Assembly (NCBI GenBank): GCA_001899305.1
Contig: MKWL01000001.1
Coordinates: forward strand, 310,001-374,000
Origin: Thiobacillus sp. 0-1251
Lineage (GTDB): Bacteria; Pseudomonadota; Gammaproteobacteria; Burkholderiales; Thiobacillaceae
Direction: 5' to 3'
Length of the DNA: 64,000 nucleotides
Part shown: positions 28,317 to 51,610 of the stretch, piece after piece
How the letters are laid out: every line of letters starts with the position of its first letter
Position numbering within the stretch: position 1 is the stretch's first letter
Made by a program: the position numbers and the translations under genes
The notes under the pieces: model-generated
What the model was told of the DNA's origin: nothing
The model's database searches: none
The model's input: only the letters and a program-made list of their open reading frames with translations

Positions 28317-28409
28317 ATGGAAACCCAAGGACTGGGCTGGTTGATACTGGAAGCTGCCATTGCGGCGGGATTGCTGGCATTCATCGTGTGGTGGACGATG
28401 AAGAAGTGA
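28317..28409 (+). CDS. Putative 30-residue single-helix membrane peptide
   Basis: METQGLGWLILEAAIAAGLL followed by AFIVWWTMKK: one hydrophobic helix with an aromatic and basic end, as in many real bacterial micro-proteins. GGGAG lies about 12 bases upstream of the ATG, slightly far. Divergent from mltA and convergent to apaG. The clean amphipathic ends suggest a real peptide, but length alone makes this uncertain. Confidence 0.45.
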   Translation: METQGLGWLILEAAIAAGLLAFIVWWTMKK

Positions 28410-28412
28410 ATG

Positions 28413-28461
28413 GTGAGTGGTAAGCGGGTAGACCGCTTGCCGCTCCCCGCTCACCGCTCAC
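28413..28461. repeat. Inverted repeat between micro-ORF and apaG, possible diverged GTGAGG-family member
   Basis: Left arm GTGAGTGGTAAGCGG (28413-28427) faces right-arm segments CCGCTTGCC and CCGCTCACCGCTCAC (28433-28461). The inner AAGCGG/CCGCTT pair forms a hairpin. It sits between two convergent genes, so it could also serve as a two-way terminator, although T runs are missing. Confidence 0.55.
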
Positions 28462-28462
28462 T

Positions 28463-28846
28463 CTAATGCAATACCCGTGGCATCGACAGGGTGAACGGGG
28501 GGATTTCCGCTTCGAACTTGTTGCCGTCTTCCGCCACCATCTGATAGGTGCCGCGCATCGTGCCGACCGGCGTCGCCATCGCGGTGCCGCTGGTGTACTC
28601 GAAACTCTCGCCCGGTCGCAGCAGCGGTTGTTCGCCCACCACGCCAAGTCCCTTCACTTCCTGGGTGACGTTTTCCGCGTCGGTGATGATCCAGTGGCGC
28701 GAGATCAGTTGCGCCGCTACCGTCCCGCTGTTGGCGATGGTGATGGTATAGGCGAACACATAGCGATCCGCCGACGGGTCGCTCTGGTCGGCCAGATAGG
28801 TTGTGTTGACGTTGATGCTGATCTGGTATTTCTTGCCTTCTGCCAC
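28463..28846 (-). CDS. apaG: Co2+/Mg2+ efflux-associated protein ApaG, GTG start
   Basis: 127 residues from a GTG at 28846 (VAEGKKYQISINVNTTYL), matching the usual ApaG length; the frame is open further upstream, but that would run antisense through rpe. A single ApaG (DUF525) immunoglobulin-like domain: SRHWIITDAENVTQEVKG and GVVGEQPLLRPGESFEYTSG are the conserved blocks. In Salmonella mutants it links to Co2+ resistance and Mg2+ efflux. Divergent from rpe, a common betaproteobacterial arrangement. Confidence 0.93.
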   Translation of the reverse strand: MAEGKKYQISINVNTTYLADQSDPSADRYVFAYTITIANSGTVAAQLISRHWIITDAENVTQEVKGLGVVGEQPLLRPGESFEYTSGTAMATPVGTMRGTYQMVAEDGNKFEAEIPPFTLSMPRVLH

Positions 28847-29638: not shown

Positions 29639-29646
29639 TTAAGAAG

Positions 29647-29715
29647 TAAGGCGTGAGGAGTCAGGCGTGAGGCGTAAAAGCCCGCAGCCAATCGTTCCTT
29701 ACGCCTCACCCCTCA
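29647..29715. repeat. GTGAGGCG-family inverted repeat between rpe and gph
   Basis: Left arm at 29647-29677 repeats GGCGTGAGG-type units; right arm at 29697-29715 is CCTTACGCCTCACCCCTCA. GTGAGGCGTAA (29667-29677) and TTACGCCTCAC (29699-29709) are a perfect 11-bp inverted pair with a 21-base loop. It ends eight bases before the gph ATG, leaving no ordinary ribosome site. Confidence 0.85.
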
Positions 29716-29722
29716 TGCAAAT

Positions 29723-30410: not shown

Positions 30411-30513
30411 GTGAGGCGTGAGGCGATAGGCGTGAGGTGCAGTGCCGGCGCGAGTGCGCGATGGCGGCGTCGTGTTGTACTCCATTCCTCACCCCTTACC
30501 CTTTACGCCTCAC
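30411..30513. repeat. GTGAGGCG-family inverted repeat between gph and trpE
   Basis: Left arm GTGAGGCGTGAGGCG and following (30411-30437) consists of tandem GGCGTGAGG-like units; right arm (30487-30513) begins CCTCACCCCTTACC and ends ACGCCTCAC. The outer 9 bases (30411-30419 and 30505-30513) pair perfectly. The 49-base centre is unrelated to the other copies. It fills nearly the whole gap and ends six bases before the trpE ATG. Confidence 0.85.
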
Positions 30514-49941: not shown

Positions 49942-50673
49942 ATGGCAGGACATTCGAAATGGGCCAACATCCAGCACCGCAAGGGGCGCCAGGATGCCAA
50001 GCGCGGCAAGATCTTCACCAAGCTTATCAAGGAAATCACCGTAGCCGCGAAAATGGGCGGCGGCGACCCCGCGATGAACCCGCGCCTGCGGCTGGCGATC
50101 GAGAAGGGCAAGGCCGAGTCGTTGCCGAAGGACAACATCGAGAACGCGATCAAGCGCGGCACCGGCCAGCTCGAGGGCGTGAACTACGAGGAAGTACGCT
50201 ATGAAGGCTATGGCATCGGCGGCGTCGCAGTGATGGTCGACTGCCTGACCGACAACAAGACGCGCACCGTCGCCGACGTGCGCCACGCCTTCACCAAACA
50301 TGGCGGCAACATGGGCACCGACGGCTGCGTGGCGTTCCAGTTCAAGCACTGTGGCCAGATCATCCTGGAGCCGGGCGCGAGCGAAGAGGCCGTGATGGAA
50401 GCCGCGCTCGACGCCGGCGCCGACGACATCATTCCCAACGAGGATGGTTCGATCGAAGTGTTGACCTCGCCCGATCCCAAGGCCTTCGAAGCGGTGAAGG
50501 ACGCACTGGAAAAAGCCGGGTTCAAGCCGGCGGTCGCCGAGATCACCATGCGTCCGGAAGCCGAAACCGAACTGGCCGGCGATGACGCGGTGAAGATGCA
50601 GAAGATCCTGGACGCGCTCGAGAGCCTCGACGACGTGCAGGAGGTCTACACCAACGCGGTGCTTCCCGAGTGA
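49942..50673 (+). CDS. yebC: YebC/TACO1-family translation-associated protein
   Basis: 243 residues: [33 protein letters not shown], and [19 protein letters not shown] are the family blocks. It relieves ribosome stalling at proline-rich stretches and was formerly called a transcription factor. First gene before ruvC in the usual proteobacterial order; here a four-helix-bundle gene has come between. Its stop codon TGA is already part of a repeat arm (TGAGGCGTGA). Confidence 0.96.
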
Positions 50674-50700
50674 GGCGTGAAGGGTAAGGCGTGAGGCGCG
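50671..50700. repeat. GTGAGGCG-family repeat, left arm beside the four-helix gene
   Basis: TGAGGCGTGAAGGGTAAGGC followed by GTGAGGCGCG. The 13-mer GTAAGGCGTGAGG (50684-50696) pairs with CCTCACACCTTAC at 51086-51098 with one mismatch. This arm includes the yebC stop codon and the GTG start of the next gene. Confidence 0.85.
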
Positions 50701-51053
50701 TTCACCATGATTTGGTGGCTTGGCAGCAGGCCATGCTGCTGGTGAAACAAGTGTATGAACTGACGTCACAGTTTCCCGCGGATGAGCGATTTGGCTTGGT
50801 GGCGCAGATGCGGCGCGCAGCGGTATCCATTCCCAGCAATATCGCTGAAGGTGCGGCGCGCCAGTCCAATCGTGAGTTCGCACAGTTTCTGATCGTGGCT
50901 CGCGGCTCTCTCAGCGAACTGGATACGCAATTCAGAATCGCTCAGGATTTGGATTTTTGTCCTCCACGAGCTGAAATGGAAATGCAGATAGACCGTCTAT
51001 TCAGCTTATTGGGTGGCCTGCTGAAAACCCAGCGAGAACCCGAAAAAACATGA
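50691..51053 (+). CDS. Four-helix-bundle protein, 23S rRNA intervening-sequence (S23/IVP) type
   Basis: 120 residues. Full family pattern: [78 protein letters not shown]. These pentameric four-helix proteins are encoded in 23S rRNA intervening sequences and at other scattered sites; the bAvd subunit of diversity-generating retroelements shares the fold. It is inserted between yebC and ruvC. The GTG start lies inside a GTGAGGCG repeat and the stop overlaps the ruvC ATG (ATGA). Its base composition is visibly more AT-rich than yebC and ruvC. Confidence 0.9.
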
Positions 51054-51610
51054 CGGCCTCCAAACCCGCCCCCTCACCCCTCACCCCTCACACCTTACGC
51101 ATTCTGGGCATTGATCCCGGCCTACGCCTCACCGGCTTCGGCGTGATCGAGCAGACCGGCCAGAAGCTGGCCTACGTGGCCAGCGGCGTGATCAAGAGCG
51201 GCGAGGGCAGCCTGCCGCAGCGGTTGGGGGTGCTGTTTGCGGGCTTGAACGAGGTGATTGCCACCTACCAGCCCGATACCTGCGCGGTCGAAATCGTCTT
51301 CGTCAACGTCAACCCGCAATCGACGCTTCTGCTCGGGCAGGCGCGCGGTACCGCCATCTGCGCGGCCGTATCGCGCGATCTGAGCGTGGCGGAATACACG
51401 GCATTGCAGATCAAACAGGCGGTGGTCGGCCACGGCAAGGCCGCCAAGGAACAGGTGCAGGAGATGGTGAAACGCCTGCTGAGCCTGCCTGCCGCGCCGA
51501 CGGCCGACGCTGCCGACGCACTGGCCTGTGCCATCACCCATGCGCACGGCAGCCGATTGGGTACACACTCCACCGCAGGCTACCGCGTCAAGGGCGGGCG
51601 ACTGATATGA
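51050..51610 (+). CDS. ruvC: Holliday junction endonuclease RuvC with repeat-derived N-terminus
   Basis: 186 residues. Catalytic Asp22 in [18 protein letters not shown], Glu in [20 protein letters not shown], and late acidic residues in [15 protein letters not shown]. The usual protein begins at the residues here numbered 16-17; codon 16 is TTA where the original ATG would be expected, and the preceding residues ([12 protein letters not shown]) are translated from a CCTCACCCC repeat arm. Translation must now begin at the ATG overlapping the four-helix gene stop. It resolves Holliday junctions with RuvAB. Confidence 0.95.
51069..51100. repeat. GTGAGGCG-family repeat, right arm, inside the ruvC 5' end
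   Basis: CCCCTCACCCCTCACCCCTC followed by ACACCTTACGC, the inverted form of the left arm at 50671-50700. It encodes RuvC residues 7-17. Confidence 0.85.

Follow-up and report, generated by a model that had tools for sequence, protein, structure and literature searches.

S23 genes between heptad repeat arrays: a candidate self-spreading element in the Thiobacillus yebC-ruvC junction and elsewhere

An S23 gene and its two arms between yebC and ruvC

The window, a stretch of 64,000 nucleotides from Thiobacillus sp. 0-1251, carries between yebC and ruvC a gene for a four-helix-bundle protein of the S23 family, flanked on both sides by short arrays of degenerate heptads (Table 1). The preliminary description, made from the letters alone, had placed an S23/IVP-type gene in this junction, and the profile searches agree. 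The open reading frame matches PF05635 (23S_rRNA_IVP) at 1.2e-34 and TIGR02436 (four helix bundle protein) at 5e-33. Its scores, 119.1 and 113.6 bits, exceed the respective cut-offs of 33.8 and 24, so that it is a member of both families. Matches to bAvd and DivGenRetAVD were weak, that to bAvd lying below its cut-off. The sole relative of solved structure (E up to 0.01) is Xcc0516 of Xanthomonas campestris (PDB 2GSC, 6.4e-31), described as a toroid-shaped homopentamer of four-helix bundles (PMC4990558).

Table 1. Positions of the S23 cassette and of gene-less hairpins in the window.
Feature	Position	Strand	Remarks
Gene-less hairpin of the GGTGAGC unit	about 28406-28463	.	unit flanks this genome's second S23 (L005)
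Gene-less hairpin of the GTGAGG unit, upstream of the gene read as gph	29645-29717	.	RNA fold z -6.4
Gene-less hairpin of the GTGAGG unit, downstream of the gene read as gph	30411-30513	.	RNA fold z -6.3
Left arm, four degenerate GTGAGGN heptads	50670-50697	+	holds yebC stop and S23 GTG start
S23 / 23S_rRNA_IVP four-helix-bundle gene, 120 aa, GTG start	50691-51053	+	PF05635, TIGR02436
Right arm, four CCTCACN heptads, in inverted orientation to the left arm	51070-51098	-	read in frame within the ruvC N-terminal extension

The two arms are inverted members of one repeat family, as had been proposed, and a 13-mer in each pairs with its counterpart with one mismatch (GTAAGGCGTGAGG at 50684 and GTAAGGTGTGAGG on the minus strand at 51086). 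With up to two mismatches, GTGAGGCGTGAGG has 16 matches in the window against 2.6 expected (overlapping matches counted). Outside the cassette it has 11 matches, 10 of them in two gene-less hairpins and one isolated (12012). Chance resemblance of the repeats was ruled out, since none of 100 shuffles of the window reached 16, and by the multi-locus controls given below.

The yebC stop codon (50671-50673) lies inside the left array, and at the other end the ruvC frame has its first ATG at 51050, in overlap with the S23 stop (51051-51053). This overlap and the GTG start in the left arm had both been seen correctly, and the positions given in the preliminary description were right to within a few bases. 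In the window ruvC appears to have an N-terminal extension of 16 residues (51050-51097), which runs partly through the right array. The arms pair in the minimum-energy predicted RNA fold (446 nt; z -3.7), and 1 of 100 shuffles was equally good. Like a 23S rRNA intervening sequence (IVS), the cassette has an S23 frame between inverted termini that pair in the predicted fold, its site being the yebC-ruvC junction and not the inside of a 23S rRNA gene. A search for known RNA families in Rfam with positions 50400-51400 gave no match at E up to 1. A reading as a defence system was dropped, no PADLOC family being found at E up to 1.

S23 loci in the genus and across phyla

A RuvC match was found in 52 of the 56 genus genomes, and the yebC-ruvC junction was read in 30, that of the window genome included. 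The site states at this junction and at the gph and pdh junctions were assigned by eye, as were the S23 arm types used in the hairpin-count, gph-match and regression tests. Presence and absence at yebC-ruvC are precise: 16 of the 30 junctions are clean and repeat-free, 7 hold S23 plus arms, and 7 hold other inserts without arrays. None of the 23 S23-free junctions contains an array. The earlier reading, of a mobile or RNA-level element with pairing arms, is supported in part: 23 of the 30 genomes lack the cassette, and its arms pair in the predicted RNA fold. An S23 gene standing here without repeats would have spoken against it; arms are present in all 16 S23 loci clustered at yebC-ruvC.

At a clean junction the yebC stop is followed by a few bases, a TTG (once GTG) and the RuvC core RILGIDPG. 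In the window the triplet before the core is TTA, so that the TTG start of the clean relatives is gone and ruvC appears to start within the cassette, at ATG 51050. With this start lost and the yebC stop lying in the left array, the element has taken the place of the gap and provides both yebC's stop codon and ruvC's start codon. Filled and empty junctions at this one site, where the original gap was replaced, showed no target-site duplication such as a classical IS or MITE leaves. Seven other yebC-ruvC inserts (L130, L131, L133, L135, L144, L146, L152) are armless and were read from their translations as toxin-antitoxin pairs of the DUF433/DUF5615-like or PIN type.

The distribution of S23 is patchy, with genes in 32 of the 56 genus genomes and in 57 of 117 family genomes (genus included). 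We gathered 171 loci, 80 of them from the family, 80 from named genome contigs of many phyla (phyla taken from the record titles) and 11 from viral contigs. The named-genome loci are those of the 80 relatives, out of 588, with the best E-values to the window protein, and the sample therefore favours closer relatives. Removal of 8 loci (too short, N-rich, or L068) and of 35 redundant ones left 128 non-redundant loci. L068 (G037:C91:6887-7123), a weak S23 match, has an RVT_1 reverse transcriptase about 600 bp away and is probably an Avd gene of a diversity-generating retroelement.

Arms accompany S23 across phyla. In the 128 loci the mean best 21-bp self-match at a lag of 7 was 0.747 upstream and 0.741 downstream of S23, compared with 0.477 in 243 regions 600-800 bp away and 0.481 in shuffles; lags of 4-6 and 9-12 were near background and a lag of 8 was slightly raised. 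A lag-7 identity of 0.81 was reached by 29% of upstream and 36% of downstream flanks but by only 2.5% of the 243 distant regions, and among the 73 loci passing 0.81 the best period was 7 in 60, 8 in 11 and 9 in 2. For the inverted match between the arms, 103 of the 128 loci lay above the 95% point of a null made from mismatched loci, and 61 lay above the 99% point. Period-7/8 arrays, an inverted arm match or both were present in 110 of the 128 (family 46 of 49, viral 5 of 7, broad 59 of 72), and arrays were visible by eye in some of the 18 loci that failed both criteria. The enrichment of arrays at S23 genes, the other point at which the proposed link could have failed, is strong when set against the control regions, and the link survives. 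The notion that arrays lie near every gene was rejected on the 243 distant control regions and the 7 toxin-antitoxin-like yebC-ruvC inserts without arrays.

A search with one query found S23 matches in 32 plasmid records, 30 of which are cyanobacterial by genus name. Twelve of the 32 loci were read; a period-7/8 self-match of at least 0.81 occurs in at least one flank in 11 of these 12, and the inverted arm match exceeds 95% of the null in 7. Arms in direct orientation also occur, with a match above the 99% point in 17 of the 128 non-redundant loci. Four of these have no inverted match. Among the 12 plasmid loci, L284 has direct arms, and at L277 the direct match far exceeds the inverted one. 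Pairing of the arms is therefore probably not obligatory.

Three things escaped the preliminary description: the unit varies among S23 loci, a change in one arm of a locus goes with a change in the other, and the unit of dispersed hairpins tracks that of the resident S23. The three S23 genes found in the window genome are all arrayed, each with a different unit. The second (L005, at a junction read as rmlB-rmlA) has GGTGAGC arms, and at the third (L006, at a junction read as gmd-fcl) the arms are built of a CAAG-type heptad; these names, like gph, pdh and accC below, are provisional readings of the translations. At one and the same junction S23 often bears different units in different genomes, and the lineage-specific unit on the left matches that on the right. 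At all six main junctions the left arm matched its own right arm over the right arms of other loci (p <0.0005 to 0.006; 2000 permutations; n = 20, 16, 12, 9, 9 and 7, redundant loci kept). The two arms of a locus therefore evolve together. In a seventh cluster, whose 4 viral loci are near-identical, there was no signal of own-arm preference. Between different sites, S23 proteins that resemble each other tend slightly towards similar arms (Mantel r 0.16, p 0.001).

Gene-less hairpins of the same units

Hairpins built from the unit of an S23 cassette, with no gene between their arms, are dispersed in the window and in the rest of its genome. The probe CCTCACNCCTCAC occurs 41 times in the window genome, compared with 0 for the reversed control. 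In 20 stretches a script called 18 distinct gene-less inverted pairs, mostly with four units per arm and with spacers of 13-72 bases; three of the 20 stretches have single or direct arrays only. What lies between arms in this genome is either S23 or a spacer of this length. The best pairwise similarity score among the spacers of the 18 pairs was 8.5, a value reached by 81 of 100 shuffles, and the mean was 5.44 against 5.13 (0 of 100 shuffles). Non-autonomous copies formed by internal deletion, as in a MITE, would be expected to have internal sequence in common; the spacers have none that is strongly shared, and their mean similarity lies slightly above that of shuffles. The close relative G001 was compared by eye at five sites. 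It has no S23 at yebC-ruvC. In front of gph its hairpin is of the GGTGAGC unit, that of the window being of GTGAGGC, and a hairpin of this kind is lacking at the remaining three gene-less sites.

The number of hits of a unit tracks the S23 with matching arms. Among the 56 genus genomes, GTGAGG hits had a median of 27 in the 11 carriers of a GTGAGG-armed S23 against 3 in the 45 others (p 5e-5), and they were unlinked to the S23 of the pdh operon, which has TCAGG arms (p 0.85). For TCAGG hits the median was 56 in the 15 carriers of a TCAGG-armed S23 against 6 in the 41 others (p 1.7e-6), with a weak lean towards carriers of the GTGAGG-armed S23 (p 0.06). The GGTGAGC unit showed a trend only (3 carriers, p 0.07). 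When relatedness was taken into account by phylogenetic regression on a ruvC-region tree, which covers 30 of the 56 genomes, the TCAGG effect stayed (p 0.0001) and the GTGAGG effect had p 0.017 at the best lambda of 0 or p 0.054 at lambda 0.99. There are exceptions. No matching S23 was found in 8 genomes with at least 15 GTGAGG hits and in 6 with at least 20 TCAGG hits, and G055, scored as S23-free, has 28 GTGAGC hits, absences that are uncertain given that many genus genomes are incomplete. Conversely, G001 has a TCAGG-armed S23 yet 3 TCAGG hits, and G049 a GTGAGG-armed S23 yet 2 GTGAGG hits.

Single gaps hold different units in different genomes. Before gph, 22 of 30 genus genomes (own included) have arrays of one of five heptad units, 5 have other inverted repeats, mostly of 8-9-bp units, and 3 have none visible by eye; the sequence of G048 ends early, so that only its right arm is visible. 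The unit at the gph junction is that of a resident S23 in 11 of 17 typed genomes against 5.5 expected (p 0.002). The remaining 6 are mismatches, and arrays are present there in S23-free genomes also. The pdh junction, read in 30 genus genomes, holds an S23 with TCAGG or CTAGG arms in 16, a gene-less hairpin of the GTGAGG type in 7, the window genome among them, and other hairpins or sequence in the last 7. A gap of one kind can therefore be taken by a cassette of one unit or by a gene-less hairpin of another. Some relatives have inverted repeats made of 8-9-bp units (CACAGAGG-like and GCGAAGGAC-like) in these gaps (gph: L260, L248, L256; pdh: L289, L293).

A possible role of S23 in the spread of the arrays

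The S23 protein is conserved. Median dN/dS was 0.05-0.27 at six sites (3 to 72 pairs each) and 0.15 over 37 pairs of loci at the junction occupied by the window S23. Such purifying selection suggests that the protein does something; S23 has no known catalytic site. On balance we favour, by a modest measure of confidence, the view that the cassettes are IVS-like selfish elements whose S23 recognises its own repeat unit and promotes the spread of hairpins; the association itself is observed, and the action of the protein is what we infer from it. Each cassette consists of S23 and two arms, usually inverted, in which a unit of 7 bp, or in some families of 8 bp, is repeated about four times. The S23 ring could bind its own unit in DNA or RNA and, once bound, could help to copy, convert or insert arrays and promote their growth. 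In this way a resident S23 would seed intergenic gaps with hairpins of the unit that it recognises. Once transcribed, the arms would pair, and the hairpin so formed would make the insertion tolerable in operons and in rRNA; in rRNA, removal by RNase III might add to this tolerance.

The nearest parallel is the S23-bearing 23S rRNA IVS, which likewise has one S23 gene, of about 0.4 kb, and inverted termini that pair into a stem. The cassette differs in lying between protein genes, in having gene-less hairpins of the same unit dispersed around the genome, and in a unit that varies by lineage. Repetitive extragenic palindromes and their associated transposases (REP/RAYT) are dispersed intergenic inverted repeats tied to one protein gene that the same repeats flank. 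The S23 arrays resemble them in this respect, but the gene is S23 and not a Y1 transposase, and tandem 7-8-bp units, free to vary, take the place of a fixed palindrome. Tandem 7-bp units in intergenic DNA, the mark of bacterial heptamer repeats, are found here too, as in GGGAATC of Xanthomonas, GGGGA(C/T)T of Nostoc and TAACTGA of Beggiatoaceae. The cyanobacterial STRR is another named intergenic heptamer repeat. The arrays described here bracket S23, including GGGAATC at two Xanthomonas loci and heptads on cyanobacterial plasmids. The two Xanthomonas S23 genes (L183 and L191) stand with their GGGAATC arms at a junction read as accB-accC, and the L183 protein is a close match to 2GSC. GGGAATC occupies 186 and 183 places in two Xanthomonas genomes, mostly as four units, with 70 and 75 inverted pairs (PMC4692102).

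The IVS of Coxiella rRNA has tandem GACAGAT heptamers upstream of S23 and a 28-bp terminal stem, and is excised by RNase III (PMC4990558), so that its build is similar to that of the cassettes. S23-bearing IVS are also sporadic, as the cassette is, and are thought to be horizontally acquired, and the Coxiella S23 gene is held to be decaying and probably unexpressed; the same paper describes S23 proteins as having no known function despite a solved structure (PMC4990558). Within the literature found, only this paper was seen to mention heptamers and S23 together. The terms 'S23', 'four helix' and '23S rRNA' have 0 occurrences in the main texts of PMC4692102 and PMC4679880. We found no literature joining S23 genes to genome-wide heptamer arrays, an absence that counts for little given that most subscription journals and bioRxiv lay outside the scope of the search.

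The order of events could have been the reverse. Hairpins of 7-9-bp repeats might arise by replication slippage and template switching and be kept as mRNA hairpins or terminators, S23 merely inserting or surviving in their loops. We consider this unlikely, while recognising that the gph and aceE-aceF gaps hold inverted repeats in most genomes, S23-free and 8-9-mer ones included, that heptamer repeats are already known in genomes generally (PMC4692102, PMC4679880), and that 14 genome-unit combinations are rich in hairpins without a matching S23 having been found. Against arrays that precede S23 speak the yebC-ruvC junction, which is repeat-free in 16 of 30 genomes and arrayless in 23 of 23 S23-free ones, those with toxin-antitoxin-like inserts included, and the hairpin counts, which follow the matching S23 and not the other one. 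Control at the RNA level only is less probable still: S23 would bind the arm stem of its own mRNA and regulate or process the transcript, the hairpins being RNA targets or degraded copies and the mobility ordinary recombination. The predicted pairing of the arms in the transcript, the strong folding of the gene-less hairpins and the RNase III excision of the Coxiella IVS (PMC4990558) would all be expected. Direct arms at some loci would not, and such control by itself leaves unexplained why one gap holds different units in different genomes.

Two further possibilities would assign the movement of the arrays to another enzyme, and we rate both as very improbable. In the first, the hairpins would be REP-like elements moved by a Y1 transposase, with S23 as a passenger. 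Y1_Tnp matches occur in 40 of the 56 genus genomes, in numbers that correlate with array counts (Spearman 0.31, p 0.02 for GTGAGG; 0.39, p 0.003 for TCAGG). The 16 Y1-free genomes, however, include ones with 33, 18, 17 and 16 GTGAGG hits and ones with 39 and 31 TCAGG hits. The window genome has one partial Y1 match only, and no Y1 gene lies between arms in it. A reverse transcriptase that copies array RNA into DNA, with S23 acting like the Avd protein of diversity-generating retroelements, is suggested by the weak bAvd and DivGenRetAVD matches and by the homology of the two four-helix-bundle families (PMC10053308). Avd works with a reverse transcriptase, whereas the window genome has none: RVT_1 matches number 0 there and in the array-rich genomes G029, G028, G014 and G004, being present in 18 of 56 genomes. 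L068, the sole Avd-like gene found beside a reverse transcriptase, shows no arrays in the flanks read. S23 arrays appear to depend on neither a reverse transcriptase nor a Y1 transposase.

To return to S23 as the agent of spread, the data link this family with heptamer repeats across phyla, and the pairing of each S23 with a unit of its own can be put to the test. The pattern may point to a self-spreading element of a type so far overlooked, from which some unexplained bacterial repeats could stem; the papers on heptamer repeats that were examined name no maker of them. More tentatively, and with rather less than even confidence, S23 could have founded a class of its own among selfish elements, one with two parts. 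Each S23 would recognise a single, freely evolving 7-8-bp unit and, through growth, conversion or insertion of arrays of it, would generate heptamer hairpins (GGGAATC of Xanthomonas, the cyanobacterial ones and others) without a transposase or reverse transcriptase of its own, the rRNA IVS being a special landing site. If this were true, many bacterial intergenic hairpins would trace to one overlooked protein family, and the fragmentation of rRNA by IVS would be a by-product of S23 elements.

In three cyanobacterial plasmids S23 lies inside CRISPR-cas operons (L275, 1495-1863; L277, 1501-1860; L281, 1492-1848), placed twice as cas6-S23-cas4 and once as cas10-S23-cmr3. Co-occurrence of S23 with cas genes may therefore reflect insertion and not a shared function.
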